Notes under the pieces: model-generated
Databases searched by the model: none
Seen by the model: only the letters and a program-made list of their open reading frames with translations
Told to the model about the DNA's origin: nothing
Part shown: piece by piece, positions 2,449-64,000 of the stretch
Layout of the letters: each line of letters starts with the position of its first letter
How positions within the stretch are numbered: position 1 is the stretch's first letter
NCBI GenBank assembly: GCA_022414725.1
Contig: CM039463.1
Location: forward strand, 55,935,585-55,999,584
Length of the DNA: 64,000 nt
Direction of reading: 5' to 3'
DNA from: Microglena sp. YARC
Lineage: Eukaryota > Chlorophyta > Chlorophyceae > Chlamydomonadales > Chlamydomonadaceae
Made by a program: the position numbers and the translations under genes

Positions 2449-2486
2449 GACTATGTTCAGACATGTCCCATGGATAAGGGGTATTG

Positions 2487-2945
2487 TCAGGACAAGGGTG
2501 GGAGTGAGGTATAGATTCTTGTTCTTTGACCCCAGTGATTGATGACTTTGTTATTGATTGTCATGGTGCAGGCCTGAGAATCAAACTGAACTAACATAGA
2601 AGGGTTGGCTTTGATGGCTGCAGCCATTGACATGAGGTTAGGAGTGTTAGGGTCATCATTGAGATGAACATTTCTGAGCTTGTGAATCTTTCCATTGTCT
2701 CCTCTGATCAGAGCATTGCCAGATCTGGTGATGTGAGTATATCCTGATGCAGTCTGTACTCTGATATGGGGGAATATGTCATGTATGTCATATAACAGGG
2801 ATTCATCGCCTGTCATGTGGGAGGTAGCTCCAGTGTCCAAGATCCAGTTTACTGCCATGCGGTTTGTGCGTGGGGAGGCATTAAGGGCATACGAAGGAGA
2901 ATGAGGTGCAGTAGGGGTAGATGCAGGTTTGTCATATGCTGGCAC
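2487..2945 (-). pseudogene. copia aspartic protease region
   Basis: Encodes a retropepsin-like segment with the active-site motif WILDTGATSHM near residue 35, followed by a hydrophobic copia-protease-like stretch (VHLNDDPNTPNLMSM). It lies between the gag-like region and the integrase, in a frame different from the upstream gag ORF, which it overlaps. In copia these are one polyprotein, so a frameshift or deletion separates them here. The Met used as start is simply the first in the open frame. Confidence 0.85.
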
Positions 2946-34150: not shown

Positions 34151-35045
34151 TGACCTCAACTTCACCCAACACCCAACACCCACATTCGCCCATGTACCCA
34201 ACACCCACACCCACATTCACCAACAACTTCCGACTGCTAACCCAACTTCACCCAACACCCAACACCCACACTCGCCCATGTACCCAACACCCACACCCAC
34301 ATTCACCAACAACATCCGACTGCCAACCCAACTTCACCCAACACCCAACACCCACACTCGCCCATGTACCCATGCCCACACCCACATTCACCAACAACAT
34401 CCGACTGCCAACCCAACTTCACCCAACACCCAACACCCACACTCGCCCATGTACCCAACACCCACACTCGCCCATGTACCCAACACCCACACCCACATTC
34501 ACCAACAACATCCGACTGCCAACCCAACTTCACCCAACACCCAACACCCACACTCGCCCATGTACCCAACACCCACACCCACATTCACCAACAACATCCG
34601 ACTGCCAACCCAACTTCACCCAACACCCAACACCCACACTCGCCCATGTACCCAACACCACACCACATTCACCAACAACATCCGACTGCCAACCCAACTT
34701 CGCCAACACCCAATACCCCACACTCGCCCATGTACCCAACACCCACACCCACATTCACCAACAACATCCGACTGCCAACCCAACTTCACCCAACACCCAA
34801 CACCCACACTCGCCCATGTACCCAACACCCACACCCACATTCACCAACAACATCCGACTGCCAACCCAACTTCACCCAACACCCACACCCCACACTCGCC
34901 CATGTACCCAACACCCACACCCACATTCACCAACAACATCCGACTGCCAACCCAACTTCACCCAACACCCACACTCGCCCATGTACTCAACACCCACACC
35001 CACATTCACCAACAACATCCGACTGCCAACCCAACTTCCCCCAAC
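34150..35045 (+). repeat. 86-bp satellite variant
   Basis: About ten units sharing the ends of the 85-bp unit (acttcacccaacaccca and aacatccgactgccaaccc), with a different middle (cactcgcccatgtacccaac). It is a sister repeat that evolved from the same ancestor and forms a sharp boundary at 34150. Confidence 0.93.
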
Positions 35046-36325
35046 ACTCACTTAAATCCCAACACACAGGAGGGACCAGCTCCTCATCTAACCCCCACTC
35101 CAGCCAGCCCCCAGCCTCCTTCACACGAATTCTCGAGTCCGTGCCGCTTTTCTTCGTCCACCTCCTGCCATTCAGCAGGCGCCAACAACATCCAACTGCC
35201 AACCTTAACTTCAACCATCCACCCAACACCTTACACCCAACACTCATCCAACTCCCAACACACAGGAGGGACCAGCTTCTCTGCTGACCCCCTCCCCAGC
35301 TGACACCAGCAACATCCAACTGCCAATCCTAACTGCACCCATACACCCACATTCACCCACATCCACCCATGTGCCCACAACCCACACCCACACCCACCCA
35401 ACACTCATCCAACTCCCAACACACAGGAGGGTTCAGCTCCTCTGCTGACCCCCTCTCCTGCTGACACCAGCAACATCCAACTGCCAATCCTAACTGCACC
35501 CATACACCCACATTCACCCACATCCACCCATGTGCCCACAACCCACACCCACACCCACCCAACACTCATCCAACTCCCAACACACAGGAGGGTTCAGCTC
35601 CTCTGCTGACCCCCACTCCAGCCAGCCCCGAGCCTCTTTTGCACGAATCTCCAAGCTCGTGCCGCTTCCCTTTGTACACATGGAGGCCCCGGTGTATCTG
35701 GAGGGCGGATCACGAATGGGGCCAACCCCAACTTCACCCATTCACCCAACACCCAACACCCACCCAAAACCCACCTAGCCACCCAGCACCCAATACCCAC
35801 ACTCACCCAACACTCATCAAACTCCCAACACCCAGGAGGGACTAGCTCCTCTGCAAATTCCCACTCCAGCCAGCTCCCAGCCTCACCCACCCACCCACAC
35901 TCACCCTAAACCCTAAACTCTCACCCAACATTCATCCAACTTCCACCATGCAGGAGGGACCAGCTCCTCTGCCGACCCCTTCTCAAGCCAGCCCCCATCC
36001 TCCTTTGCAGGAATCTCCGAGTTCGTGCTGTTTCTCTTTGTCCAATTCCTAACATTCAGCTGACTCCAAGATTCTTCTTTTGCCTCTCTTTGTCCAACTC
36101 CTGACATTCAGCTGGCTCCGAGGACATCTAACTGCCAACCCTAACTTCACCCATCCACCCAACACCCAACACTCGCCCACATTGACCAACAGGATCCAAC
36201 TGCCAACCCCAACTTCACCCATCCACCCAACACCCAACACCCAACACCCACCCAAGACTCACCCAAGACTCACCCAACTCCCAACACGCAGGAGGGACCA
36301 GCTCCTCTTCTGACCCCCACTCCAG
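35045..36325 (+). repeat. Intron end with copies of the FO synthase exon start
   Basis: Longer units (about 150-300 bp) that combine the satellite flank (actcccaacacacaggaggg) with a pyrimidine tract, an acceptor-like ccactccag and pieces of the next exon. Exon-start copies lie near 35100-35165, 35620-35725 (the best one, encoding LVPLPFVHMEAPVYLEGGSR), 35985-36060 and 36075-36120. They are diverged and lack the rest of the exon, so they are decoys and not alternative exons with full coding capacity. Confidence 0.88.
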
Positions 36326-36329
36326 CCAG

Positions 36330-36776
36330 CACCCGTCCTCCTTTGCACGAATCTCTGAATTCGTGCCGCTTCCCTTTGTACACATGGAGGCCCCGGTGTA
36401 TTTGAAGGGCGGCTCGCGAAAGGGGCCAACCCTCCGGGAGTGCGTGCTGCTACACGCAGTTTCGCGTTTGGCTCTCCACCCCCACATCACCAACATCCAG
36501 GCGTCCTGGGTCAAGATGGGGCCCCAGAAGGCTGCAGCCCTGCTGAACTCCGGATGCAATGACATGGGTGGGGTGCTGATGAACGAGAGCATTACCCGGG
36601 CTGCGGGAGCTACGCACGGTCAGGAGCTGGACGCCAGCTGCATGATGGATATCATCACCGCTGCTGGTAGGCACCCTGTGCAGCGCACCACCCCGTACAG
36701 CCTCCCGCCAGAGGAGCAGGTGCACAAGGCGCTTGCAACAAGTAAAATGGAGCTTGCACCGCTTCTCATGAAGTGA
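36330..36776 (+). CDS. cofH: FO synthase, terminal exon (CofH domain C-terminus)
   Basis: Last exon of 7,8-didemethyl-8-hydroxy-5-deazariboflavin (FO) synthase. The CofH radical-SAM half joins an aminouracil-type product and tyrosine-derived intermediates to form FO. In green algae FO serves as the antenna pigment of photolyase/cryptochrome proteins. The frame shows the diagnostic C-terminal blocks EFVPLPFVHMEAPVY, HPHITNIQASWVKMG, NDMGGVLMNESITRAAGATH and GRHPVQRTT, then a short tail ending LLMK and TGA. The acceptor is CCACTCCAG at 36325 or the AG at 36329, and both keep the frame from 36330. The iron-sulfur CxxxCxxC part and any CofG half lie upstream and are not in the window, possibly in the gap. 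Plus strand, with satellite intron upstream. Confidence 0.94.
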   Translation, partial: HPSSFARISEFVPLPFVHMEAPVYLKGGSRKGPTLRECVLLHAVSRLALHPHITNIQASWVKMGPQKAAALLNSGCNDMGGVLMNESITRAAGATHGQELDASCMMDIITAAGRHPVQRTTPYSLPPEEQVHKALATSKMELAPLLMK

Positions 36777-37159
36777 GGACGCAATGCGGGGAGGGTCCGT
36801 TGACCAAAAGGAAGGTTCCCTTACGTCGCAAGACGCAGGCTATACAATTGGTTGTGTATCAGGCAGCAGAGCTGGGGTCCTCCTAAAGTACCCTGGTAGG
36901 CACCCTGTGCAGCGCACCACCCGTACAGCCTCCCACCGGAGGTGCAGGTACACAAGGCGCTGGCAACAAGTAAAATGGAGCTAGCACCGCTGCTCATGAA
37001 GTGTCCCACTAAATGTTTTGTGATATGTGATATTCACTCTTGACTGCGTCACATGTGTGATGTGTGATGTGTGATGTTCACTCTTGACTCCGTCCGTCCG
37101 TGGGCACATTTGGAGTCCAGAAGGACACCAGGAACAATGTCATCATCATCATCGGCAGT

Positions 37160-37193
<34 letters not shown>

Positions 37194-37700
37194 CAATGTC
37201 ACAATTTGCATTATAATTCAAATAGACCATCTTGGGTAGAGTCTAAGCTCGTGGCTGATGCTGGTAGGCACCCTGTGCAGCGCACCACCCCGTCCTACGG
37301 CCAAAATCTGCAGCTAACAAGTGTGCCTGAAAGCTGACATAGCAGACTGGCAGGCACCAGGCTGGCATCAATAGTTGTGGTGGTGGCGGCAAGCACCAGG
37401 CTGGCATCAATAGTTGTGGTGGTGGCGGCAGGCACCAGGCTGGCATCAATAGTTGTGGTGGTGGCGGCAGGCAGCAGTAGCAGCAGCAGTAGCAGCAGAA
37501 GCAGAAGCAGAAGCAGCAGCAGCACTGTCTCACAATTCAAATTCTTATTTAAATATACCAGCAAGGGTAGCTGGACGCCAGCCGCATGATGGATATCATC
37601 GCCGCTGCTGGTAGGCACCCTGTGCAGCGCATTACCCCGCACAGCCTCACAAGTAAAATGGAGGTAGCGCCTGTGTTAATAAAGTGAGGATTGGATAGGA
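36777..37700 (+). repeat. Copies of the FO synthase coding end in its 3' flank
   Basis: Diverged direct copies of the exon end. 36891-37005 repeats from ctggtaggcaccctgtgcag through the codons before the stop. 37255-37300 is a short piece. 37570-37690 repeats the gacgccagc...atcatcgccgctgctgg block and again ends with a TGA. Between them lie a GCA run at 37155-37193 and three 39-bp units at about 37345-37466 (ggctggcatcaatagttgtg). None retains an intact frame of the length of the real exon. Confidence 0.85.
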
Positions 37701-48023: not shown

Positions 48024-48520
48024 TCACTGTGGGCGGATCAGTACATATCTGACTAGGCCTCCAGCGTATTGCATCACACTTCGAACCTCACTGTGTGCGG
48101 AACAGTTCATATCTGACTTTGCCTCCATCGTACCGCATTACACTTTGAACCTCACTGTGTGCGGAGCAGTTCATATTTGACTTTGTCCAGCCCCTTTCAG
48201 CGAATCAATTGGTCTAGTGGTACACCAAATCGCTTTGAGGATGCAGGGTCGGGGGTTCGATTCCCCCTACGGCCGCCCTGAGCGTTGCAGGTCGTTGTCA
48301 ACCGCGATGGTAGCTTGTCCAGTTGAGGTAGAAGACCGCTCTCTACCCATGTACAACGGGTTCCCTTAATACCACGCCCCACCAGGAGTTATCATTTCCT
48401 CCAGCGTACCGCACCACACTTTGGACCTCACTGTGTGCGGAGAAGTTCATACTTGACTTCACTGTGTGCAAAGCACTACACTTTGAACCTCACTGTGTGC
48501 TGAGCACTACACTTTGAACC
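48024..48520 (-). repeat. 64-bp array: copies of the transporter coding end plus stop
   Basis: Units at 48024-48087, 48088-48151 and 48152 onward, with further pieces at 48398-48520. On the minus strand each reproduces the last 21 codons and TGA of the transporter (the real one is at 48521-48587). A SINE splits the array at about 48185-48397. The copies lie entirely in the 3' flank of the gene. Confidence 0.9.
48185..48397 (+). mobile_element. tRNA-derived SINE (sense copy)
   Basis: Begins gcccctttcagcgaa. It has an RNA polymerase III A box (tggtctagtgg) and a perfect B box (ggttcgattcc), followed by a roughly 130-bp body ending cgccccaccaggagttatc. It is inserted in the 64-bp array. The tRNA-like head does not fold into a clean anticodon arm, so it is not a working tRNA gene. 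Confidence 0.88.
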
Positions 48521-48726
48521 TCACTGGGTGCGGAGCAGTTCATATTTGACTTCACCTCTATCGTCCTGCATCACTCTTTGAACCTCTCCAAGTGACTTGC
48601 CCCTTGTCTCTGGAACTTTGAAGTGCACATATACCGCCGCCATCATCGAAATAAATGCAAAAATAACAAAGGAGAACCAGCCAGCTGCTGATAACAATGA
48701 CATGAACACAAAGTTGGTGAGGGAAC
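48521..48726 (-). CDS. MFS sugar-porter-type transporter, last exon (TM11-12)
   Basis: Encodes the end of TM11 (SLTNFVFMSLL), TM12 (GWFSFVIFAFISMMAAVYVHF), the sugar-porter signature VPETRGKSLGEV and a short cytoplasmic tail ending LLRTQ and TGA. The acceptor is CCCCGCAG|GT at 48727. The exon starts with the last two bases of a split Gly codon, matching the phase of the exon at 51599. Members of the sugar porter family (TC 2.A.1.1) have 12 helices and move sugars or polyols by proton symport or facilitated diffusion. The substrate here cannot be read from sequence. Confidence 0.92.
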
Positions 48727-50518
48727 CTGCGGGGACATGGTGGTGGCGGTTGGTGGTGGTGGTGGTTGGTGGTGGCAACGGTGGTAGGTGGGTAGGAAGG
48801 TTTAGTGGTAGTGAGGATGGTAAAACGCAGCTGCATATATTAAGGACATGTACACAAAGTTGGTGAGGGAACCTGCGGGGACATGGTGGTGGTGGTTGGT
48901 GGTTGGTGGTGGCAGCGGTGGTGGGTGGGTAGGAAGGTTTAGTGGTAGTGAGGATGGTAAAACGCAGCTGCAGATGTTAAGGAAATGATCACGAAGTTGG
49001 TGAGGGAACCTGCGAGGACATGGTGGTGGCGGTTGGTGGTGGTGCCTAGTCGGCGGTGGTGGTTGGTGGTTGGTGAGCGGTTGGTGGTTGGACTTGGAGC
49101 CAAGGCTCAAAGGCTGAACACCACACTAGTGAGCACCCTGAGGCCGCCTGCCCACCTGCTCCCCCACCTGCTCCCCCCCCCCCCCTCCCCCTCTACACAG
49201 GGAGATCCCCCACTCCCCCCCCCCCCCCCCCCCACAGGTAAATCCCCCCCCCCCCCCCCCCCCCCCACAGGGAGATCCCCCACTCCCCCCCCCCCCCCCC
49301 ACCCACAGCCACCACCACCACCCACAAATTCGAATCCCCCACTCCCACCCACACCCACCCATACAGGTAGATCCCCCACTCCCCCCCACCCCCTACCCAC
49401 AAAGTCAAATCCCCCACTCCCCCCCACACCCACCCAAACAGGTAGATCCTCCTCTCCCCCCCCCCCCCCACCCACAAAGTCAAATCCCCCACTCCCCCCA
49501 CACCCACCCATACAGGTAGATCCCCCACTCCCCCCACCCCCTACCCACAAAGTCAAATCCCCCACTCCCCCCACACCCACCCATACAGGTAGATCCCCCA
49601 CTCCCCCCACCCCCTACCCACAAAGTCAAATCCCCCACTCCCCCCACACCCACCCATACAGGTAGATCCCCCACTCCCCCCCACCCCTACCCACAAAGTC
49701 AAATCCCCCACTCCCCCCACACCCACCATACAGGTAGATCCCCCACCCACAAAGTCAAATCCCCCACTCCCCCACACCCACCCATACAGGTAGATCCCCC
49801 ACTCCCCCCCCACCCCCTACCCACAAAGTCAAATCCCCCACTCCCCCCACACCCACCCATACAGGTAGATCCCCCACTCCCCCCCACCCCCTACCACAAA
49901 GTCAAATCCCCCACTCCCCCCACACCCACCCATACAGGTAGATCCCCCACTCCCCCCACCCCCTACCCACAAAGTCAAATCCCCCACTCCCCCCCACACC
50001 CACCCATACAGGTAGATCCCCCACTCCCACCCACACCCACCCATACAGGTAGATCCCCCCCCCCCCCCCCCCACACACACACAGGTAGATCCCCCACTCC
50101 CCCACCCCCACCCTACCCCCACAGTTAAATCCCCCACTCCCACCCACCCCCACCCACCCAGGTAAATCCTCCACTCCCACCCACACCCACCAACATTGGT
50201 AGATCCCCCACTCCCCCCCCCCCCACCCACCCACCCACCCACCCACACAGGTAAATCCTCCACTCCCACCCACACCCACCCACACAGGTAGACCCCCCAC
50301 TCCACCTCTGATCACCCACGCAAAGCAGTACTTGTGAGGACGAGCATAGCTGTAGCCGCCAACACACACAGCCCACCTACTCCCCCCCCCCACACTCCCC
50401 CACCACCTACCCCCCCCCCCCCCCCCCACTCCCCCCACCACCTACTCCACACAGGTAGACCCCCCTCTCAACCTCTCCTCACCTACGCAAAGCAGTACTT
50501 GTGAGGAAGAGCATAGCT

Positions 50519-50702
50519 AGGGGTTGGCTATGTTATATAATATTAGTGAATAAATAATATTATATAATACTATATAATATTAGTCGGACGAGCCGTCTCA
50601 CCAGAATTTTGAATTTATTTGAAAAACTAATATTATTTTGACACTGTAATAATATTCGTTAATATTAGTTTTTCAAATACTAATATTAGTTGCCATTCTC
50701 TA
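50519..50702. mobile_element. AT-rich MITE with 9-bp target duplication
   Basis: 184 bp of TA-rich DNA flanked by agcatagct at 50510-50518 and 50703-50711. Sister copies of the host repeat show the empty site (gagcatagctgtagccgcc). The ends are weakly inverted (tagggg-ttggc versus tagagaatggc). An internal hairpin of aaaactaatatta arms lies at 50620-50685. The 8-9-bp duplication suggests hAT-like mobilisation. Confidence 0.75.
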
Positions 50703-50883
50703 AGCATAGCTGTAGCAGCCAACACACACAGGTAGATCCCCTTACCCCCCTCACCCCACCTCTCCTAACCCACCCACCCACAGCAGTACTTGTGAGGATG
50801 AGCAAATTTATAGCCGCCAACACACACATGTGCATCCTCCTACCCCCCTCACCCCACCTCTCCTCACCCACCCACAGCAATAC

Positions 50884-51094
50884 ACAGTGTTTTTCCTAAG
50901 AACAATTAATCGTGCACACACAATTATTAATGTTAATTTGCGAAATGGCCCATTGTTTTCTCAGGTCTGGGTAATATTGGCCTGGACAACGTCCATAACC
51001 TATTATTAATATTATCATTTTCCCAAAGTGCAGACCCAGAGATCGGACCTGAACGATTATTAATGTTTGGTCCAAAACCCTTAGGAAAAACACT
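50884..51094. mobile_element. MITE with perfect 16-bp terminal inverted repeats
   Basis: About 211 bp bounded by CAGTGTTTTTCCTAAG at 50885-50900 and its exact complement at 51080-51095. It is flanked by gcaatac at 50877-50883 and 51095-51101. The empty site (cccacagcagtacctgtgag) is seen in the neighbouring exon-derived copies. It has no coding capacity. The superfamily is uncertain (hAT-like or similar). Confidence 0.85.
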
Positions 51095-51598
51095 GCAATA
51101 CCTGTGAGAACACAGCCGACACCCCAGGCGACTTAGCCCCCCCCACACCCACACCCACAAACCCACACCCACACACACTCACACAGGTAGATCCCCATTT
51201 CAGCCTCTGCTTACCCACCCACAGCAGTACCTGTGAGAAACAGCATGGCTGTAGCCGCCGACACCCCAAGCGACTTGGCTCCCAGGTTAAACACCTCACT
51301 TGTCAGCACCCAGAATCCCCCGGCCCACCTGCGCCCCCCCCCCCCACACGCACACCTACCGACACCCACACACACAAACGCAGGTAGATCCCCCATTTCA
51401 CCTCTGCTCACCCACCCACAGCAGTACCTGTGAGAAATAGCATGGCTGTAGCCGCCGACACCCCAGGCGACTTGGCTCCCAGGCTGAACACCTCACTGGT
51501 GAGCACCCAGAATCCCCCGGCCTACTGTCCACTATAGGGAGACCCACCTCCTGGGGTGAAAATCCTTTCGCAACCCTGTCGCAACTTAAAAAAAGTAC

Positions 51599-51859
51599 CT
51601 GTGAGAAACAGCATGGCTGTAGCCGCCGACACCCCAGGCGACTTGGCTCCCAGGCTGAACACCTCACTCGTCAGCACCCAGAATCCCCCGGCCCACGAGG
51701 CACTGAAGCTCAGCATGAAGGCACTCAGCGCAGCGAGGGTGAGCCATGATGCGCTGTGTATGTACAAAGTCATAGCGGCGAATAGCAAGGCGGCACTGCA
51801 GCCTACTGCACCCCAGGCGAGCAGTGGTCTGCGTCCGATTCGGTCTACTAGGACCAGGC
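51599..51859 (-). CDS. MFS transporter exon (loop 8-9, TM9-TM11 start)
   Basis: 261 bp. Encodes the sugar-porter motif LVDRIGRRPLL after TM8, TM9 (WGAVGCSAALLFAAMTLYI), TM10 (AALSAFMLSFSASWAGGFWVL), the SEVFSLGAKSPG loop (equivalent of the E-x-x-x-x-x-R region) and the start of TM11 (AATAMLFLTG). Acceptor CTCCTCAG and donor CACAG|GTACTT. It starts with two bases and ends with one base of split Gly codons, in phase with both neighbours. Among several partial copies this is the only complete one, so it is taken as the functional exon. Confidence 0.93.
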
Positions 51860-53461
51860 CTGAGGAGCAAGGGTAAGGGTAGGGAGAGGGAGAGGGGTGG
51901 GGTGAGGTGGTCAGGACAGTATTGTGCAGGCCTGAGGAGTAAGGCAGATGGGGAGGGGGAGGTGATGGTAAGAGGCGAGGGTGCGCCATGGGGGGCTGTG
52001 TTAATGGTGGTGGTGGTGGTTGGTGGTGAGCCATGATGCGCTGTGTGTGTACAATGTCATAGCGGCGAATAGCAAGGCGGCACTGCAGCCTACTGCACCC
52101 CAGGCGAGCAGTGGTCGGCGTCCGACTCGGTCTACTAGGACCAGGCCTGAGGAGCAAGGGGTAGGGGTAGGGGTAGGGTAGGGGTAGGGGTAGGGGTAGG
52201 GGTAGGGGTAGGGGTAGGGGTAGGGGTAGGGAGAGGGGTAGGGAGAGGGGTGGGGTGAGGTGGTCAGGACAATATTGTGCACGCCTGAGGAGCGGGGCAG
52301 ACGGGGAGGGGAAGGTGATGGTAAGGAGGTCATGACCCAGCATGAATGTATTGGAGTGCCAGGCATGCTAGAAGTGTTCGGCGTCCCGTGTAATGTAACT
52401 GGAGCAGGCCTGAGGAGCAAGGCAGAGGGGAGGGGAAGGTGACGGTAAGAGGCGAGGGTGAGCCATGGGAGCTGTGTGCATGGTGGTGGTGGTGGTTGGT
52501 GTGTGTATAAAGTCATAACGGCGAATAGCAAGGCAGCACTGCAACCTACCAAACCCCAGGCGAGCAGTGGTCGGCGTCTAACTTGGTCCACTGGGAGCAG
52601 GCCTGAGGAGCAAGGCAGAGAGGTTTGGGTTTGGGTATGGGTATGAGTATGGGTATGGGTATGGGTATGAGTAGGGGTGGGGATGGGGATAGGGTGAGGG
52701 TGGGGGTGAGGGGTGAGGGTGGGGGTGGGGGTGAGGGGGTCAAACTCCCCAGGCTAGCAGGGGAACGATATACTCGGATATGAATACACATGAATGCAAA
52801 TGTATAGCTCCGCCCTACCTGCCAACACTCCAATGGTCTTGGTGGCAGTAATGGAAGAGAAGGCCAGGGTGGCAAGATCGAGGGACAGATCATACAGTCA
52901 TCCATCAGCCGTTGTATTTATAAACCCACAACTTTTGTGGAATTACAGATGTAACATATAAATGTATACAAAAAAACATGAATACAAACATGTCATATAT
53001 AAAATACAAATACAAATACATATACATAAAATATACAGACAAACATGTCCAATCCGCCATACCTGCTATCACCCCAATGGTTTTAGTGGCAGTGATGGAA
53101 GAGACGGCCTGGGTTGCGAGGGAAAGGGACATATCACCCACCGCAGTCATGATAATTATTTAATCACTATTGTGGGTGGATTTATACGGATGTCTAAGTA
53201 AAATTGAAAAAGAACAAATATAGCACCACACTACCTGCCAGCACCCCAATGGTCTAGCTGGCAGTGATGGATGATGAGGGCAGGGTGGCAAGGGCAAGGG
53301 AGTAGGTCATCCAGTCATCCACCTCAGTCATAATAATGATGAAATCACTATTGTGTGTGGATTTATACAGATGTATAAATACACATGAATACAAATGAAT
53401 ACAAGTATATACACAAATACACATATATACACATAAATACACATATATAGCTGCGCCCTAC
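51860..53461 (-). repeat. Transporter intron with acceptor-side and donor-side exon copies
   Basis: Copies of the next exon's acceptor and first half lie at 52020-52155 (DRVGRRPLLAWGAVGC intact) and 52500-52606 (diverged). Remnants of gcctgaggagcaagg lie near 51930, 52285 and 52405. A GGGGTA-type simple repeat fills 52158-52250 and a GGTATG/GGTGAG repeat fills 52625-52740. On the other side, copies of the preceding exon's end plus donor lie at 53225-53335, 53060-53155 and 52822-52905 (SSITAxKTIGVxAG). Confidence 0.87.
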
Positions 53462-53591
53462 CTGCGAGCACGCCAATGGTCTTGGCGGCAGTGATGGAAG
53501 ACGAGGCTAGGGTTGCGAGAGCAGGCGACATGTCATCGACCTCAGCCAACAACGTGGGGGCAAAGTTGATGACAGCGGTAGAGGCGGTGGC
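53462..53591 (-). CDS. MFS transporter exon (TM7 end, TM8)
   Basis: 130 bp. Encodes ATASTAVINFAPTLL, the counterpart of the sugar-porter QQxSGINAxxYYAP segment of TM7, then EVDDMSPALATLASSSITAAKTIGVLA of TM8. Acceptor CCTCTTAG and donor GCTCGCAG|GTAGGG. It begins in phase 0 and ends with one base of a Gly codon, which the exon at 51859 completes. The QQxSGIN motif is poorly conserved here (NQATASTAVIN across the junction), so substrate specificity may be unusual. Confidence 0.9.
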
Positions 53592-54477
53592 CTAAGAGGA
53601 CGGTGAATGAGCAAGAATAAGATAACACCTATAGTGGGAACTGGAAATGGCCACCTTCACCAGGGTGTACTTGAGGAGGTGTGTGTGTGTGTGTGTGTGT
53701 GGGGGGGGGGGGGTACTGGGAACACTGTGGGGCTTGAGGATGGGGGGAAAGCTATCGTCCAAGCTGATGCCCGTAGTGGGAACCTCAGCCAACAAAGTGG
53801 GGGCAAAGTTGATGACAGCAGTAGAGGCGGTGGCCTAAAAGCACGGCGGGGATTGATTTAAAAACTTGAAATTGTGTTTTTCCTAGCTTCATGGTTTTAA
53901 GCTTCCTGCAGGGACAGCGTTTGATAGCTTTTATAGCTTTTAATGACATTTTTTAATTTTATAGTGTCATTTTTTGACAAACTGGGACCAAAAATACCAA
54001 TCGCTATGTATACCGGGGAAAAAATCCCTGGAGCACAGTGAATGACCAAGAATAAGATCAAGCGTGTGGTGGCAGTAGTGGTGGTGGTGGTGGCGACATG
54101 TCATCGACCTCAGCCAACTATGTGGGGGTTAAGTTGATGACAGCGGTAGAGGCGGTGGCCTAAAAGCACGGGAAGGATTTATTTTTCAAACATGAAAGTG
54201 GTTTTAGGTGTTCTCAAGGGACAGCGTTTTATAGCTTTGTTTAGCTTTTTAGGACATTTTATAATTTTGTAGCGGCATTTTTTGCCATAACAGAGCCAAA
54301 AATAGCAATTGCTATGTATAACGGGGAAAAAATCCCTGGAGCACAGTGAATGACCAAGAATAAGATCAAGTGTGTGGTGGTGGTAGTGGCGGTGGCGGTG
54401 TGTGGTGGTTGTGTGGTGGTAGTTGTGGCTTGTGGGTAGCGGCTCCCTTAGAGGTGAGTGACCAATAATAATATTTT

Positions 54478-54625
54478 TGTTTGATTTGTTTGTCCTCGAC
54501 ACACCCCTGATGTAATGGGTTTTTTTTGCTTTGTGGGTGCTTTTTCTTTTTGTTTAAAGCACAGAGTCTCATACACCCTCGCGGTGTCAAGTAGACTTTA
54601 ACATGAAATGTAATGTAATGTAAAA
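54478..54625 (+). mobile_element. Dead-on-arrival LINE 3' end
   Basis: Nearly identical to 46865-46990: shared tttgtttgtcctcgacacac, caccctcgcggtgtcaagta and an atgtaatgtaatgta tail. Extreme 5' truncation is typical of LINE retrotransposition. It lies antisense to the host gene, inside an intron. Confidence 0.9.
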
Positions 54626-54659
54626 TATCAAGTGTGGGGGATGATAGGTACTACCGTAC

Positions 54660-55610
54660 TGTCGATTTTCATTTTGACACTGCAGGTTTTCATTTTGACA
54701 CTGCAGGTTTTCATTTTGACACTGCAGGTTTTCATTTTGACACACTGCAGGTTTTCATTTTGACACACTGCAGGTTTTCATTTTGACACACTGCAGGTTT
54801 TCATTTTGACACACTGCAGGTTTTCATTTTGACACACTGCAGGTTTTCATTTTGACACACTGCAGGTTTTCATTTTGACACACTGCAGGTTTTCATTTTG
54901 ACACACTGCAGGTTTTCATTTTGACACACTGCAGGTTTTCATTTTGACACACTGCAGGTTTTCATTTTGACACACTGCAGGTTTTCATTTTGACACACTG
55001 CAGGTTTTCATTTTGACACACTGCAGGTTTTCATTTTGACACTGCAGGTTTTCATTTTGACACTGCAGGTTTTCATTTTGACACTGCAGGTTTTCATTTT
55101 GACACTGCAGGTTTTCATGTTGACACTGCAGGTTTTCATTTTGACACTGCAGGTTTTCATTTTCACACTGCAGGTTTTCATTTTCACACTGCAGGTTTTC
55201 ATTTTCACACTGCAGGTTTTCATTTTCACACTGCAGGTTTTCATTTTCACACTGCAGGTTTTCATTTTGACACTGCAGGTTTTCATTTTGACACTGCAGG
55301 TTTTCATTTTGACACTGCAGGTTTTCATTTTGACACTGCAGGTTTTCATTTTGACATGGCAGGTTTTCATTTTGACACTGCAGGTTTTCATTTTGACACT
55401 GCAGGTTTTCATTTGACACTGCAGGTTTTCATTTTGACACTGCAGGTTTTCATTTTGACACTGCAGGTTTTCATTTTGATACTGCAGGTTTTCATTTTGA
55501 CACTGCAGGTTTTCATTTTGACACTGCAGGTTTTCATTTTGACACCGCAGGTTTTCATTTTGACACTGCAGGTTTTCATTTTGACACACTGCAGGTTTTC
55601 ATTTTCATTT
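54660..55610. repeat. 21/23-bp minisatellite
   Basis: About 42 units. To about 55030 the unit is 23 bp (gacacactgcagg...). After that it is 21 bp (gacactgcagg...) with local variants (tttcacactg at 55160-55255). The 21-bp part reads as a 7-residue repeat (MKTCSVK) in all minus frames and is not considered coding, because it sits in an intron. Confidence 0.95.
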
Positions 55611-55703
55611 GCACACACGGAGGATATACATGTATGCTACAGTCCAGGGGTAGAAATAGGCATGCCAGTATGTATGTATGTTACAGTCCAGGGGTAGGCT
55701 GAA

Positions 55704-55916
55704 GGTAATGATAACGCCTGGTGGGGCGTGGTGTTAAGGGAGCCCATCGTACGCGGGTGGGAAGCGGTCTCCTACCTCAAATGGACAAGCTACCATCGCG
55801 GTTGACGACGAACTGCAACACCAAGAGCGACCGAAGGGGAAGTCAAACCCCCGACTCTTCGTCCTCAAGCGATCTGGTCTACCACTAGACCATTGTAAAT
55901 AACTGAAAGGGTTTTT
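55704..55916 (-). mobile_element. tRNA-derived SINE in a dispersed repeat
   Basis: Antisense copy of the 48.2-kb SINE, with inverted A box (ccactagacca) and a slightly damaged B box. Flanked by ggggtaggctgaa at 55691-55703 and ggggtaggctaaa at 55917-55929, a 13-bp target duplication with one mismatch. It splits a copy of the dispersed intronic repeat. Confidence 0.88.
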
Positions 55917-56294
55917 GGGGTAGGCTAAATAGGTTAAATGGACTTGCCCACCCATGATAGGAAGGGCTAATAGGAAATAATTACGAAATAGGATCGATAC
56001 ATTAAAGTATATACACGGAGGATATATCGAATTGTACGTTTTTGTTTGTTTCATGTTTCTCCTTGTAGGATGGTCTTTGTTGAATTGATTTCGCAGTACG
56101 CTCAGCATAGCCACATGGCAATTGCAAAGGCCAAAAGGCCAAAAACTTGAGTAACAGACCTATTGATATAAATAAATACATACATAAATAAATATATACA
56201 TAAATAGTTTGCCTTATAAGGAGGCGTGAAGTTGAGGGGGTCAGCCCGTTTGCTTGCACTGGGGCTAACCACAAAACTATTGATATCAAATCAC

Positions 56295-56413
56295 CTGGTT
56301 AAAGAATGCAAGCCACATGGCGATTGCAAAGGCGCGGCTTTCAGGACCTGTAGCTACCAAGTACGTATCCTTCAACATGACAGCTAGGGTTTGCCCAAAG
56401 CTGCTCTCAAAAC
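56295..56413 (-). CDS. MFS transporter exon (end of central loop, TM7 start)
   Basis: 119 bp. Encodes FESSFGQTLAVMLKDTYLVATGPESRAFAIAMWLAFFNQ: the end of the cytoplasmic central loop, then the start of TM7. Acceptor CCTCTAG and donor AACCAG|GTGATT. It starts with two bases completing a Gly codon from the exon at 57878 and ends in phase 0, fitting the exon at 53591. Confidence 0.88.
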
Positions 56414-57877
56414 CTAGAGGACATTCAATGTGATGCGATGCGATGAGATAAGATACAATGTAATGGGATTGGATGAGATGAGGTGAGATGAGATGACATA
56501 CTATGAGATGAGATGTAATGGGATGAGGTGAGATGTAATTCAATGATATAATATGTGATGTGATGCCACGCGATGAGATAAGATACAGTGTAATGGGATG
56601 AGATGAGGTGAGGTGAGATGAGGTGAGGTGAGATGAGGTGAGATGAGGTGAGGTGAGATGAGGTGAGATGAGGTGAGATGAGTGGGTGAGGTGAGATGAG
56701 GTGAGATGAGGTGAGGTGAGATGAGGTGAGATGAGGTGAGATGAGGTGAGGTGAGATGAGGTGAGATGAGGTGAGGTGAGATCAGGTGAGATGAGGTGAG
56801 ATGAGGTGAGGTGAGATGAGGTGAGGTGAGGTGAGGTGAGATGAGGTGAGGTGAGATGAGGTGAGGTGAGATGAGGTGAGGTGAGGTGAGATGAGGTGAG
56901 GTGAGATGAGGTGAGGTGAGATGAGGTGATGGGGTGAGGTGAGGTGAGGTGAGGTGAGTGAGATGAGGTGAGGTGAGATGAGGTGAGGTGAGATGAGGTG
57001 AGGTGAGGTGAGGTGAGATGAGGTGAGATGAGGTGAGGTGAGGTGAGGTGAGATGAGGTGAGATGAGGTGAGATGAGGTAAGGTGAGATGAGATGAGGTG
57101 AGGTGAGATGAGGTGAGGTGAGATGACATTCGATGTGATGCGATGCAATGAGATGAGATGAGATATGAAGACTTTCAGTGTGTCGTGATGTGATGCGATT
57201 CATCTGATATGATGGGATGAGATGCAATGCCATGCGATGTGACCCTCAAGGCCTCAACATGACAGCTAGGGTTAGCGCAAAGCTGATCTCAAAACCTGGA
57301 GGACATTCAATGTGATGTGATGCGATGCGATGCGATGAGATACAATGTGATGTAATGATTTTCAATGTGATTTGATGCAATGTGAAGCGATTCAACTGAA
57401 TCGATGGGATGAGATGCAATGCGATGGGATGTGATGTGATGCGATGTGATGATGATGATAATGATGATGATGCCATTGTTACTGGTGCCCTGCTGGACTC
57501 CCACCGACCCACACATAACAAACATAATAATAACGAAGTATGTACAACAACAAGTAAACATAATAAAAACAAAGTAACAAGTAACATAATAACATAATAA
57601 ACAATCATAATAATAACAAAGTGTGTACAACAACACACGCAGCACCAGCCTACCTGGAGGCACACAATGCCTCTCAGAACCATCAGACTTCATGCATCCA
57701 CCCAGAGGCAATGGTGATCGTGATGCTGATGAAGATGCTGCTGCTGCTGATGACATTTGTGCCGGTGCCCTGCTGGACTCCCACCCACCCACAAATAAAG
57801 CATAATCATTTGTGCGATGTTTGTAAAAAAAACATGTCTGTACATGTGTGTACAACAAACACGCAGCACCAGCCTAC
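56414..57877 (-). repeat. Transporter intron: 10-bp-type satellite and exon-edge copies
   Basis: 56430-57240 is a gatgaggtgag/gatgcgatg-type simple satellite that opens long Ser/His/Leu frames on the minus strand. 57246-57303 is a copy of the next exon's acceptor and start (LTLAVML retained). 57460-57530 and 57725-57800 are copies of a dispersed GAT-rich repeat with ccctgctggactcccacc. 57625-57712 is a copy of the preceding exon's end and donor (GGCMKSDGSERHC). Confidence 0.85.
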
Positions 57878-58384
57878 CTGGAAGCACACAGTGCCTCTCA
57901 GCACCATCAGACTTCATGCCTCCACCCGCAAGCAAATCATGCTGCGTCAAATATTGCTCCTGCCACCCCTCTCTGGCCTCTTCTTTGGCTATGACAACAA
58001 TGCCATCGCAACAGCTTGAGCCAGTGCCACAGCCCTCCAGCCAACGCCCGGTCTCCCCTCCGACATGGACTGAGCTGAGTGGGGGTGAAGGGTAAGCTGT
58101 AGGAGGACCAGCAGTACAGCTAGACACATTGTGAGATGCAGTTCCATTTATATTGCTAGAGCCGTTTCCACAGCCCTCCAGCAAGGGCCCCTTCTCCCCC
58201 CTCTGCTCATCCCACGGCTGGAGTGAGGCTGCTCCTCCAAGAGCTTGCCCCTCACCCCCCTTCGACTCATTACATGTCCCTAGTGAGACTGATACTAGAC
58301 CCTGCCCCTCTCCTCCCCCCGACTCATTCTCATCCTGTCCGGCACTGGCTGCGGTGTGTACTGGCGTTGGGACATGGCTGAAAC
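57878..58384 (-). CDS. MFS transporter exon (large hydrophilic central loop)
   Basis: 507 bp. Encodes about 169 residues of a hydrophilic, Gly/Ser/Glu-rich, probably disordered loop between TM6 and TM7. It begins FSHVPTPVHTAASAG, includes EGCGNGSSNINGTASHNVSS and ends GGGMKSDGAERHCVLPG. Acceptor TTCATTCAG and donor CTTCCAG|GTAGGC, with both edges in phase with the neighbours through split Gly codons. A typical sugar porter has a loop of about 60 residues. Here the loop exceeds 300 with the other loop exons, reminiscent of plant tonoplast sugar transporters, though no sequence similarity to their loops is claimed. Confidence 0.8.
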
Positions 58385-60162
58385 CTGAATGAAAGCAACG
58401 GGGGGAGAACATTGGAGCATGTCAAGTGAATGAACAAATACATACATATATAGTATGTCTTATTACCAGTCGTGCGGTTAAGGGGGGCAGCCTGGCACTG
58501 GTTGCGGTGTGGACAGGCGTTGGGTTATGGTCCAAACCTGAGGAGGAGCAATGGTGCATGTCTGTCTTGTGATTGAATGAATACATACATAAATAGTATG
58601 TCTTGTTAACAGACGTGAGGTTAAGGGGGCCAGCCTGGCACTGGTTGCGGTGTGGACAGGCGTTGGGTCATGGTGCAAACCTGAGGAGGAGCAATGGTGC
58701 ATGTCTGCCTTGTGAATGAACGAATACATACATAAATAGTATGTCTTGTTAACAGACGTGAGGTTAAGGGGGCCAGTCCGGCACTGGTTGCGGTGTGGAC
58801 AGACGTTGGGTTATGGTCCAAACCTGAGGAGGAGCAATGGTGCATGTCTGCCTTGTGAATGAACGAATATATACATAAATAGTATGCCTTATTACCAGTT
58901 ATATTTACGCCAGAAGTATGCCAGTGTTTCTATTTATATTTCTATTTACGCAAGAAGCATCCCAGTGTTTATATTTCTATTTCTATTTACACCAGAAGTA
59001 TGCCAGTGTATATATTTATATTTACGCCATATATGCATGTCAGTTTTTTGTTTAGTGTTTAGTATTTATATATGTACACCTGTGTACGCCAGTGTTTTTT
59101 ATATCTATGCCAGTTTTTTGTAGCGTTTATACAAGTATGCCAGAATTTTTTAGCAGGCTTAGCTGACTTGTTTCCTTTACCTTCCTTTACCTTCTTTTAC
59201 CTTCAATTCAGTTCACCAGTGCTTGTTCTTTAAACTGCCATTCCTGTTTTTTAACTTGTTCTTTAAACTGCGATTCCTCTTTTTAATGCTGGGGTATTTC
59301 TTTAGCCTATTTGGCTACCCCTAGAATGTCCAAATACATACATGCATACGTACGTACATACATACATACATGCATACCTGTTTTTGGTTGCTGTGAGATA
59401 ACACCAAGTTGTGTGTCGTGACCATTTTGACTATGTGTTTGGCTGTAGGAGGAGGCAGACCCCATTGCGTTGAGCCGCTCCTGCATTCAGAATTCAAGTG
59501 AAAGTGAAACAATGCTCTCGAGAACATGTCCATGGGTCAACATGGGTCAACATGGGTCACACAAGTCATACTTGGACCCCTCATGGACCCCTCATGGCTT
59601 GTGGGACCCATGTTGGGGGGCATGAGGGACCCATGTTGAGCCCCATGAGGAACTTTGCGCATGGGGACATGAGCCCCATGGGGAACATTGCGTTAAAAAG
59701 GTAATGAGAACGCCTGGTGGGGCGTGGTGTTAAGGGAACCCGTCGTACGCGGGTAGGGAGCGGTCTTCTACCTCAACTGGACAAGCTACCATCGTGGTTG
59801 ACGACGACCTGCAACGCCAAGAACGACCGACGGGGGAATCGAACCCCCGACTCTTCGTCCTCACATTGATTTGATCTACCACCAGACCAATATATACCAC
59901 TGAAAGGGGCTACATTGCGTTAAGTCGCTCCTGCATTCAGGATTCAAGTGGAAGTGATATGATGCTCCCAATAACATCTGTTTAAAGTGAAAAGTGAAAA
60001 ACACGGAGGGAAGTTAGCATGGCCCCTGCCCCTACATATATGTATTTTGTTACATTTCAGGGGGTAGACAAATTGGCTACAAGGGCTTGCCTGACCATGA
60101 TATCAGGAGGAGCTAAAAATATAAAAGTACTGATGAACTGAACCCCCTAACAATCGATTTAC
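58385..60162 (-). repeat. Transporter intron: 143-bp acceptor array, dispersed repeats and a SINE
   Basis: Three 143-bp units (cores at 58491, 58634, 58777) each contain the next exon's acceptor and first ~50 bases (gtttggaccataacccaacg on the minus strand). 58890-59130 has roughly 50-bp repeats with cgccagaagtatgccagtg. 59295-59345 and 60035-60165 are copies of the dispersed intronic repeat. 59530-59660 is a catgggtcaa/catgggaccc tandem. A SINE lies at 59697-59911. No coding frame is supported. Confidence 0.85.
59697..59911 (-). mobile_element. tRNA-derived SINE with 12-bp target duplication
   Basis: Full-length antisense copy with perfect inverted B box (ggaatcgaacc) and A-box region. Flanked by acattgcgttaa at 59685-59696 and 59912-59923. 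Confidence 0.93.
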
Positions 60163-60298
60163 CGACAGAGGCCCTGGATGCTTCCTCCTCCACTTTCTCC
60201 TCCTCTTCCTCCTCCTCCTCCTCCTCCCCCTTTTGCCCCTCCTCCTGCTGCTCCTCACGGGCGTCCTCCTCCTTGTCCTCCTGCCCGTCCTCCTCCTC
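60163..60298 (-). CDS. MFS transporter exon, acidic (tentative)
   Basis: 136 bp encoding a very acidic stretch (Asp/Glu-rich with runs of up to ten Glu) ending VEEEASRASV plus one base of Gly. The donor CTGTCG|GTAAATCG is in phase with the next exon. The acceptor is uncertain: the first usable AG after the donor at 60336 gives an intron of only 38 nt and preserves phase 0. A one-base assembly error instead of an intron is also possible. The frame is open and belongs to the central loop. Confidence 0.5.
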
Positions 60299-60336
60299 CT
60301 CATCATCACCCATCACACACACATTCGCCCACTCAC

Positions 60337-60417
60337 CATCTGCGCCTTCTTGACACACTCAACCTCCTCACACAACTGGGACATCTCAGACTCCACCTTG
60401 GCTTGAAACTCAGAGTC
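60337..60417 (-). CDS. MFS transporter exon (central loop)
   Basis: 81 bp, 27 codons, starting DSEFQAKVESEM. It resembles the charged helical segment that follows PESPRWL in sugar porters. Acceptor TTTCCAG and donor CAGATG|GTGAGT. Phase 0 at both ends, matching the exon at 60639. Confidence 0.78.
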
Positions 60418-60599
60418 CTGGAAATGGTGATGATGGTGATAATTATGATTACGAAAGTGATGATGATGTTGATGACGATAATAATGATAATGATGTTGAT
60501 GGTGGTAGTGCTGCTGCTGCTGCTGATTACATTTGCCCTGGCACCCAACTGGACTCCAAATGCAATATATATATATAATTGCATGTATCCCCCCCCCCC

Positions 60600-60630
<31 letters not shown>

Positions 60631-60638
60631 AAACTTAC

Positions 60639-60723
60639 ACTAGCAGCTCTTCTCTTGGTGCCCTTCAGCAGCAACCGAAGAACCTCTCTTGCACTTGACG
60701 CGTTACCACGCATGAGCAGCCAT
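60639..60723 (-). CDS. MFS transporter exon (PESPRWL-type motif after TM6)
   Basis: 85 bp. Encodes WLLMRGNASSAREVLRLLL and KGTKRRAAS, the sugar-porter segment after TM6 (ESPRWLLxxGRxxEAxxVL). The first base completes the Arg codon before Trp. Acceptor CTTGCAG and donor GCTAGT|GTAAGT. Exons for TM1-6 must lie upstream, beyond the satellite and outside the window. Confidence 0.85.
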
Positions 60724-63700
60724 CTGCAAGTGTGTGCACGTATCAGCTGACAAGGTGTCTCTTGGAATAGTGATAAATCAAGTTTGTTTTAACAGCAAAA
60801 ATATGAAGATCATGAGCAGACATCTGCAATTCATGGGCGCATATCAGCTGACAAGGTGTGCCTTGGAAAAGGGATAGACTGAGTTTTTTTTGTAACAACA
60901 AAAAAAAATGAAGATCATAAGTGGATATCTGCAATGCGTGCGCACATATCTGCTGACAAGGTGTGTCTTGGAATAGTGATAAACCAAGTTGTTTTTGTAA
61001 CAGCAAAAAATATGAAGATCATAAGCGGATATCTGCAACGCGTGCGCACATATCTGCTGACAAGGTGTGTCTTGGAATAGTGATAAATCAAGTTTGTTTT
61101 AACAGCAAAAAATATGAAGATCATAAGCGGATATCTGCAATGCGTGCGCACATATCTGCTGACAATGTGTGTCTTGGAATAGTAATAAATCAAGTTTGCT
61201 TTGTAACAACAAAAAATATGAAGATCATAAGCGGACATCTGCAATGCGTGCGCACATATCTGCTGACAAGGTGTGTCTTGGAATAGTGATAAATCAAGTT
61301 TGCTTTGTAACATCAAAAAATATGAAGATCATAAGCGGACATCTGCAATGCGTGCGCACATATCTGCTGACAATGTGTGTCTTGGAATAGTGATAAATCA
61401 AGTTTGCTTTGTAACAACAAAAAAATATGAAGATCATAAGCGGACATCTGCAATGCGTGCGCACATATCTGCTGACAAGGTGTGTCTTGGAATAGTGATA
61501 AATCAAGTTTGCTTTGTAACATCAAAAAATATGAAGATCATAAGCGGACATCTGCAATGCGTGCGCACATATCTGCTGACAATGTGTGTCTTGGAATAGT
61601 GATAAATCAAGTTTGCTTTGTAACAACAAAAAAAATGAAGATCATAAGCGGACATCTGCAATGCGTGCGCACATATCTGCTGACAAGTGTGCTCTGGAAT
61701 AGTGATAAATCAAGTTTGCTTTGTAACATCAAAAAATATGAAGATCATAAGCGGACATCTGCAATGCGTGCGCACATATCTGCTGACAATGTGTGTCTTG
61801 GAATAGTGATAAATCAAGTTTGCTTTGTAACAACAAAAAATATGAAGATCATAAGCGGACATCTGCAATGCGTGCGCACATATCTGCTGACAATGTGTGT
61901 CTTGGAATAGTGATAAATCAAGTTTGCTTTGTAACAACAAAAAATATGAAGATCATAAGCGGACATCTGCAATGCGTGCGCACATATGCTGACAATGTGT
62001 GTCTTGGAATAGTGATAAATCAAGTTTGCTTTGTAACAACAAAAAATATGAAGATCATAAGCGGACATCTGCAATGCGTGCGCACATATCTGCTGACAAG
62101 TGGTCTTATAGAATCTTTCTTTGTAACAACATCAATAATGCGGACAATGGCTGCTCTTGGTCAAGTTTTGCACATCATGAAAATCATGAGCATCTGCAAT
62201 GCGTGCGCACACATATCTGTGACAAGTCGGATCAGTGATAACATCTGGCAATGCGCGGTGCATCGTCATGTAACAACAAATAAATTGAAATAGTGATAAA
62301 TCAAGTTTTGCTTTGTAAGACAAAAAAAAGATATGATCTGCAAAATATCTGCTGACGCATTGTAACTGAATGCACATCTATGCTGGAATAGTCGAAAAAT
62401 ATGATAAGACATCTGCAATAATCAAGGTGTGTTGGGCCCAAGTTGCTTTTAACAACAAAAACCAAAGATAATAAGCGGACATTGCAATGCGTGCGCACAT
62501 ATCTGCTGACAATTGTGTCTCTGGAATAGATAAATCAAGTTTTTGCTTTGTCACTAACAACTACACAACAAAAACGTTCATATTGCGTTGCAAGTCTCGA
62601 TCGTATAAATCGCTTGTCTTCACCTCATATCTTCATATAAATCATTCGTATCAACAAACAATATGACATCTGCAATCGTGCGCACATATCGTGCTGACAA
62701 TGGTTGTGACACAATCTCTTTGGAATAGTGATAAATCAAGTTTGCTTGGTAACAACATAAAAAATATGAAGATGTACATCTGCCAATGCTGCACATCTTT
62801 GCACAATGTACAAACTCTCAATAGATGAAGTTCATAAAGCGACATAATGCTGCGACATATCTGCTGGAACAAGTGTTCTTGGAATAAATAAATCGCTTTG
62901 TAACAACAAAAAATATGAAGATCATCGGACATCTGCAATGCGTGCGCACATATCTGCTGACAATGTGTGTCTTGGAATAGTGATAAATCAAGTTTGCTTT
63001 GTAACAACAAAAAATATGAAGATCATAAGCGGACATCTGCAATGCGTGCGCACATATCTGCTGACAAGGTGTGTCTTGGAATAGTGATAAATCAAGTTTG
63101 CTTTGTAACAACAAAAAATATGAAGATCATAAGCGGACATCTGCAATGCGTGCGCACATATCTGCTGACAATGTGTGTCTTGGAATAGTGATAAATCAAT
63201 GGTTTGCTTTGTAACAACAAAAAAATATGAAGATCATAAGCGGACATCTGCAATGCGTGCGCACATATCTGCTGACAAGGTGTGTCTTGAATGTGATAAA
63301 TCAAGTTTGCTTTGTAACAACAAAAAATATGAAGATCATAAGCGGACATCTGCAATGCGTGCGCACATATCTGCTGACAAGGTGTGTCTTGGAATAGTGA
63401 TAAATCAAGTTTGCTTTGTAACAACAAAAAAAATGAAGATCATAAGCGGACATCTGCAATGCGTGCGCACATATCTGCTGACAATGTGTGTCTTGGAATA
63501 GTGATAAATCAAGTTTGCTTTGTAACAACAAAAAATATGAAGATCATAAGCGGACATCTGCAATGCGTGCGCACATATCTGCTGACAAGGTGTGTCTTGA
63601 AATAGTGATAAATCAAGTTTGCTTTTGTAACAACAAAAATATGAAGATCATAAGCGGACATCTGCAATGCGTGCGCACATATCTGCTGACAATGTTGTCT

Positions 63701-64000
63701 TGGAATAGTGATAAATCAAGTTTGCTTTGTAACAAAAAAAATATGAGATCATAAGCGGACATCTGCAATGCGTGCGCACATATCTGCTGACAAGGTGTGT
63801 CTTGGAATAGTGATAAATCAAGTTTGCTTTGTAACAACAAAAAATATGAAGATCATAAGCGGACATCTGCAATGTGCGCACATATCTGCTGACAAGGTGT
63901 GTCTTGGAATAGTGATAAATCAAGTTTGCTTTTGTAACAACAAAAAATATGAAGATCATAAGCGGACATCTGCAATGCGTGCGCACATATCTGCTGACAA
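60724..64000 (-). repeat. 104-bp satellite grown from the exon acceptor
   Basis: About 30 units of 104 bp (for example 61169, 61273, 61377, 61482). Each contains, on the minus strand, the acceptor-like GCGCACGCATTGCAG followed by ATGTCCGCTTATG, a version of the real junction TTGCAG|ATGGCTGCTCATG. The unit next to the gene (60800-60840) still has gatcatgagcagacat, close to the exon, while distal units have drifted to gatcataagcggacat. 62100-62900 is a degenerate, indel-rich stretch. Leu/Phe/Tyr-rich frames are artefacts. The array runs off the window. Confidence 0.93.

Follow-up and report, generated by a model that had tools for sequence, protein, structure and literature searches.

Arrays of partial exon edges in the introns of Microglena sp. 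YARC and their probable origin by random tandem duplication

A sugar transporter gene with spare exon edges

We analysed a stretch of 64,000 nucleotides from the chlamydomonad alga Microglena sp. YARC (GCA_022414725.1, contig CM039463.1, positions 55,935,585 to 55,999,584; the whole stretch is hereafter called the window). It is part of contig C2 in an assembly of 568,105,699 bases and 2,390 contigs. The minus strand carries a sugar transporter gene of the major facilitator superfamily, and the introns of this gene hold partial copies of the edges of their own exons, that is, either an acceptor together with the start (head) of an exon or the end (tail) of an exon together with its donor. The eight exons within the window, E0 to E7, join to a single open frame of 496 amino acids with AG/GT borders. 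Since the joined frame matches Pfam Sugar_tr (E 1.1e-31) as well as homologous proteins, the best of which share about 48-52% identity and include one from Cymbomonas tetramitiformis, the exons are credible. E3 contains internal repeats at offsets of 57 bp and 141 bp, both multiples of three.

Each exon was compared, together with 60 bp on either side, with the whole window by BLAST, and the comparison was repeated with 200-bp flanks for E2-E7. Edge copies were found at seven of the eight exons (Table 1). A preliminary description of this DNA had counted six, since it had missed the copy of E2; all copies that it did list were recovered, with E-values of 1e-8 to 1.7e-66 for single copies. Its view that segments straddling a junction were duplicated in tandem, leaving the intact exon in place, agrees with the head-to-tail, same-strand arrangement of the copies and with the sides on which they lie. 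For the units of the array upstream of E0, E-values range from 1e-21 down to about 6e-6. No edge copies of E1, and no donor copies of E0, E1, E2 or E4, were found in these searches of the window; the donor flank of E0 matches only through its G run, and a 23-bp fragment of the E4 tail is located at 56131-56109. In the introns between E3 and E4, E5 and E6, and E6 and E7, the spare donors precede the spare acceptors. Beyond the upstream end of the window, the next exon of the transporter is preceded by four acceptor copies and followed by four or five tail copies, depending on the threshold.

AT-rich insertions with short inverted repeats break up the decaying E6 tail array at 50,520-51,110 (minus strand). 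The introns or the 3' flank of the transporter gene also harbour three copies (55,690-55,920, 59,700-59,920 and 48,200-48,380) of a dispersed repeat, which we take to be like a tRNA-derived short interspersed nuclear element (TGGTCTAGTGGTAGA ... GGGTTCGATTCC-like boxes); ARAGORN reports no tRNA there.

Table 1. Exons and edge copies of the transporter and FO synthase genes (positions in the window)
Feature	Position	Strand	Evidence
Exon E0	60639..60723	-	in frame with the remaining exons, AG/GT bounded
Array upstream of E0, period about 104 bp; units hold the intron tail of E0 with its AG and at most 13 exon bases	about 60811..64000 (window end)	-	BLAST and sequence reading
Exon E1	60337..60417	-	open frame
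Exon E2	59378..59480	-	open frame
E2 acceptor and head copy, upstream	59913..59977	-	84.6%, E 1e-15
Exon E3	57878..58384	-	open frame
Three tandem E3 acceptor and head copies	58494..58827 (58541-58494, 58730-58637, 58827-58773)	-	BLAST
E3 tail and donor copy, downstream	57621..57711	-	91%, E 6e-31
Exon E4	56295..56413	-	open frame
E4 acceptor and head copy, upstream	57254..57352	-	88%, E 2e-31
Exon E5	53462..53591	-	open frame
Two E5 acceptor and head copies, upstream	53782..54171 (53846-53782, 54171-54092)	-	93-94%
Three E5 tail and donor copies, downstream	52784..53330 (53330-53214, 53149-53006, 52893-52784)	-	BLAST
Exon E6	51599..51859	-	open frame; Sugar_tr match
E6 acceptor and head copy, upstream	52025..52189	-	93%, E 1.7e-66
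E6 acceptor and head copy, further upstream	52499..52615	-	86%, E 2e-35
Two E6 tail and donor copies, downstream	51226..51525 (51525-51423, 51328-51226)	-	96%, E 3e-44 each
Weaker E6 tail and donor copy	50365-50327	-	BLAST
Exon E7, last, with stop codon; starts at 48726	48521..48726	-	open frame
Two E7 acceptor and head copies, upstream	48828..49059 (48924-48828, 49059-48965)	-	88% and 85%
Copies of E7 end (stop codon and 3' flank), downstream	within 48024..48462	-	BLAST
Last exon of CofGH-type FO synthase, second gene	36292..36776	+	PRK09234 3.8e-50, CofH 3.5e-45 for 36285-36770; start read from sequence
Six FO acceptor and exon-head copies, upstream	35013..36044	+	E 8e-22 to 4e-63
Three FO exon-end copies, downstream	36893..37648 (36893-37003 reaching stop codon; 37259-37293; 37569-37648)	+	E 4e-13 to 5e-43
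85-bp satellite; unit holds diverged FO acceptor and exon start	26710..34183	+	alignment and BLAST

Edge copies and satellites at the FO synthase gene

The window holds a second gene, encoding an FO synthase, whose last exon is likewise flanked by copies of its edges; a search with radical-SAM motifs did not find the earlier exons of this gene. When the FO acceptor and exon start are aligned with the 85-bp satellite, the score is 66, while the best of 500 shuffles, which preserve base composition only, reaches 40, and 58 of the 360 same-strand BLAST hits between exon and satellite at E<=10 span the junction. Because of this simple shuffle control and the low complexity of the FO intron tail, the six intermediate copies weigh more than the satellite score. 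The growth of edge copies into satellites, already proposed in the preliminary description, is found in two introns, with the 85-bp unit in the FO gene and the unit of about 104 bp upstream of E0.

The sides of edge copies in a genome-wide sample

A genome-wide search in which exon copies are scored by side had also been suggested, and it was carried out on a sample of 71 exon cores, comprising members of four Pfam families from a profile search of the assembly and the FO exon, most of them with only 1.5 kb of flanking sequence. Each core with 60 bp on either side was compared with its surroundings, and a match counted as a copy if it reached E<=1e-5, covered 15 or more core bases and was not of low complexity. 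Of the 29 cores in set 1, 10 come from the window, the neighbouring exon and the FO gene, 7 from other sugar transporters and 12 from the radical-SAM family; set 2 holds the best-scoring 30 of 64 Cpn60/TCP1 matches, and set 3 holds 12 of 29 tRNA-synthetase matches. Cores interrupted by a stop, eight of the 30 in set 2 and four of the 12 in set 3, stay in the counts, and E0 is left outside the copy count because only 13 of its exon bases are copied.

All 75 head copies are located upstream of their exon (39, 17 and 19 in sets 1, 2 and 3) and all 69 tail copies downstream (34, 28 and 7). Not one of the 144 copies lies on the wrong side, and no copy with both edges, i.e. acceptor, exon and donor, was detected at the 71 cores. 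The only ambiguous case is a head match inside core L047, which itself contains a stop. Without the transporter locus and the FO exon, 54 heads and 55 tails remain, and these 109 are again all on the expected side, bearing in mind that cores of one gene and copies within one array are not independent. Among the family-picked cores, the automatic count gave 28 of 61 as positive (7/19, 12/30 and 9/12 in the three sets), the negatives including long open frames whose edges are out of reach (e.g. L018-L022, L030 and L035). L018-L022, four of them on C3 and one on C362, are five radical-SAM open frames of 416-600 amino acids with very similar ends, which we assume may be ELP3-like copies; no edge copies lie within reach of them.

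Copies that end within the core were counted separately as internal. In set 1 there are five upstream, six downstream and six inside (two of the last inverted, in E3), in set 2 four, one and one, and in set 3 a single one downstream. An apparent internal duplication of 75 bp in core L012 (C5:19590926-19591921) was rejected, as the offset is actually 74 bp: the exon tail and donor of a transporter exon are copied directly downstream, and the profile match had overrun the donor. The automatic counts still class this core as negative and its two matches as 'inside'.

The copies form same-strand tandem arrays with regular offsets, for example eight copies spaced about 138 bp apart at C3:27664521. 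In 15 of the 17 arrays of at least three copies, the rank correlation between identity to the exon and distance is negative, though near zero in two of the 15. In one CCT1 intron, five tail copies of the previous exon are followed by two head copies of the next exon and then by that exon itself. The CCT1 paralogues on C3 and C5 differ at the corresponding exon, which has tail copies in one (L055) and head copies in the other (L057). Since the paralogues hold different arrays at a matching exon, this suggests that the arrays arise and turn over quickly. The closest named match to CCT1 comes from Sanguina aurantia, a member of the order Chlamydomonadales. Two EukProt proteins match the two paralogues with 98-100% identity over the best-matching exons and less over the others. 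EukProt protein P0040, which belongs to the C3 paralogue, is without about 20 conserved residues that a genomic exon encodes (L048, about 600-670), perhaps owing to a faulty gene model or an alternative choice of splice site.

Junctions and the adjoining intron have similar rates of copying

Whereas we attribute the arrays to tandem duplications that strike at random, they might instead be made by a process specific to junctions, e.g. by duplication tied to splicing, to R-loops or to replication stalling at exon boundaries. The high frequency of the copies, with seven of eight exons in the transporter gene and nine of twelve tRNA-synthetase cores affected, speaks for such a process, as does the reported enrichment of tandem repeats near the intron ends of Chlamydomonas reinhardtii and Volvox carteri (PMC3887541). 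The window was cut into tiles of 40 bp, and each was scored for a local copy. Copies were found for 12/22 tiles straddling an acceptor and 9/18 straddling a donor, for 26/61 exon tiles less than 60 bp from an edge and 9/58 at least 60 bp inside, for 50/110 (<150 bp) and 140/284 near-intron tiles, and for 58/170 intron tiles more than 500 bp away. None of 146 tiles matched a distant part of the window at a threshold that about half of the edge and near-intron tiles pass.

A second set of tiles came from 34 other stop-free cores (radical-SAM, Cpn60/TCP1 and tRNA-synthetase), from which one masked locus as well as long frames resembling single exons had been removed. There, 67/228 tiles in the outermost 30 bp of the cores, 42/199 in the next 30 bp and 33/463 in the core middle have a local copy; in the flanks the values are 57/254 (0-60 bp), 203/662 (60-200 bp), 407/1463 (200-500 bp) and 898/3847 (>500 bp), corresponding to direct local copies in 22-31% of flank tiles. 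Matches to unrelated loci (30/1432 tiles, 2%) and inverted local copies (6/2374 tiles) are rare. By these counts, copying is about equally frequent at junctions and in the adjoining intron, and exon middles are spared.

Random tandem duplication was also simulated, with lengths of 60-300 bp and with only those events kept that fell in introns or across one junction. Introns grown from 200 to 800-1300 bp then carry copies at 58-69% of the edges, and at 1300 bp there are 955 heads upstream versus 35 downstream, and 1063 tails downstream versus 24 upstream. Because random duplication reproduces the sides, the side rule is a matter of geometry and of the loss of exon-breaking duplications: when an acceptor is duplicated, the copy that is joined to the rest of the exon counts as 'the exon', and therefore the spare one lies upstream, donors being the mirror image. 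The directional rule of the preliminary description accordingly holds as far as the sides are concerned, but it is not an independent rule. Nor are junctions preferred as sites of duplication. A junction-specific process is improbable and, with tile rates alike and the frequencies of copies reproduced by the simulation, unnecessary.

Divergence and splice motifs of the copies

The exonic parts of 111 copies, taken from 51 cores (all of set 1 and those 22 of set 2 that lack a stop), show 222, 202 and 403 differences from the exon in codon positions 1, 2 and 3, respectively, with about 2350 sites each; when only one copy per edge is taken (35 edges), the numbers are 80, 65 and 136. Equal values at positions 1 and 2 and a doubled one at position 3 fit freely drifting copies beside an exon that changes mainly at silent sites. 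This is the pattern of one freely drifting lineage, and no coding constraint on the copied exon part is apparent from it.

Could the spare sites nevertheless serve as regulated alternative acceptors or donors, or as decoys that modulate splicing or elicit nonsense-mediated decay? In the aligned copies from the window and the FO gene, the spare AG is kept in 17/17 and the spare GT in 7/7 cases. The 17 acceptor copies are unchanged between the AG and exon base 4, both included; this count is biased, since the alignment of three of them (those of E3) begins just ahead of the AG. Among the seven donor copies, one differs in the final base of the exon. Apart from the drift of the exonic parts at all codon positions, the conservation of spare splice sites did not hold in another 54 copies whose motifs could be placed uniquely. 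Here the motif columns show 11/100 and 14/116 differences, compared with 116/667 and 128/776 elsewhere, so that the motifs decay, though somewhat less than the adjoining columns. We make no claim of function for the spare sites, which we consider quite improbable though conceivable.

Other features of the window

A large satellite with a unit of 73-81 bp at 19,583-24,976 possibly has acceptor-like ends; no exon from which it might stem was found. An open frame at 1,426-2,550 (minus strand) resembles an integrase or transposase, with an IS481-type family as the best NCBIfam match (1.9e-21), and probably derives from a retroelement. An Rfam scan at the gathering threshold and a tRNA scan of the window gave no matches.

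Discussion

The arrays of exon edges in their own introns likely arose by random tandem duplication and were tolerated since the spliceosome would find only one intact exon. According to this model, duplications of about 60-300 bp would strike the DNA of a gene at random. Those inside or across a whole exon would alter the protein and mostly be lost; those across one junction would leave a complete exon plus a spare half-exon, and every such event would lengthen the intron. Since head copies lie upstream of their exon and tail copies downstream of it, all spare donors within an intron would come before all spare acceptors, and therefore no pair of an acceptor followed by a donor would exist among the spares. 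Exon-definition splicing, which needs such a pair, would ignore them. Later on, the arrays may expand or contract by slippage or unequal exchange.

It is important to note several points that weigh against this explanation. The sites taken as spliced were deduced from open frames and homologues, and the absence of whole-exon copies is judged from 71 cores, most of them with flanks of only 1.5 kb. The tile rates of the 34 cores depend on core ends defined by profiles, which may overrun the donor as at C5:19590926. According to the simulation, in which divergence and detection are not modelled, about 3% of the copies should be on the wrong side, whereas 0/144 were observed. A search for recent duplications with two copies yielded just 13 in about 150 kb, and these gave no clear breakpoint (microhomology) signature. 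Finally, the retention of AG and GT in the copies from the window and the FO gene is above the divergence-based expectation and might mean function.

An assembly artefact or a mobile intron element is very improbable. The region is repeat-rich and includes a run of 1,000 N at 25501-26500, but the copies occur on several contigs and differ from their exons by about 2-29% at varying positions, in line with the preliminary description, which had held that they are no assembly echo. The CCT1 paralogues, moreover, carry different arrays at a matching exon, and the exons of set 1, which this control covers, match their own gene only (0 hits in 312 comparisons with the loci of other genes at the same threshold), so that no element dispersed over unrelated genes, as expected of introners or transposons, came to light. 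That the copies are decayed remains of whole-exon duplications is hardly tenable, for although exon-derived copies flank several exons on both sides, such decay would also leave heads downstream and tails upstream, which is contradicted by 0/144 and by the lack of any copy with both edges.

Returning to random tandem duplication, we note that intron lengthening is usually ascribed to transposons, and that the piling up of edge copies may explain how the introns studied here grew long. A more far-reaching version would have the introns of this lineage grow mainly by serial boundary duplication, with the two-sided copies as a fossil record from which satellites bud; a slower course of the same process would account for the long introns of Chlamydomonas and Volvox and for their repeats near junctions, and the tolerance of the process would demonstrate exon definition in these algae. 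We put this forward tentatively and regard it as possible yet doubtful. A large readable share of the intron sequence derives from the gene's own exon edges, at 28 of the 61 family-picked cores, and edge copying offers a testable cause for the long introns of chlamydomonads that lack an explanation. The arrays are also a natural experiment on how the spliceosome chooses one junction among several near-identical ones. As neutral in-place relatives of coding sequence, the copies could be used for measuring constraint, and they are a warning for gene prediction, which spare edges could mislead.

The preliminary description knew of no account of such an architecture. In the literature, of which our coverage is partial, we found no description of it on a genome-wide scale, but a single straddling duplication and junction-near repeats in two algae have been reported (PMC4974935 and PMC3887541). 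In a potato gene, one tandem duplication that reached from the 3' part of an intron into the 5' part of the exon behind it, as in our arrays, created a new intron; the copied acceptor is used there and yields a new intron plus an exon piece in one gene, whereas here serial arrays of both edges lie inside existing introns of many genes (PMC4974935). According to a 2012 review, tandem genomic duplication is the only proposed route of intron gain that has been demonstrated in vivo (PMC3443670). The AGGT model of Rogers and Hellsten starts from a duplicated exonic AGGT segment and that of Gao and Lynch from whole introns with parts of exons (as described in PMC3443670 and PMC4974935). Both have in common with our case that a tandem duplication within the gene is the source of intron sequence, but they add an intron. 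Here no added intron was seen, and existing ones appear lengthened: judged by sequence, the copies sit within introns, and the joined exons match their homologues without spare pieces.

Among the green algae, the survey of C. reinhardtii and V. carteri found tandem repeats concentrated near intron ends; it scored repeat motifs, and we saw no statement there that the repeats include the splice site and exon edge, or that a side rule exists (PMC3887541). In relatives of Chlamydomonas the median intron length is 198-343 bp and the usual peak of short introns is missing; the driving mechanism, likely ancient, was left open (PMC8226300). We saw no mechanism given in that report; a candidate is visible here, albeit in a different genome. 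Taken together, the type of mutation is known, but, as far as our literature search goes, its scale, its two-sidedness and the share of intron sequence that it supplies seem to be new.

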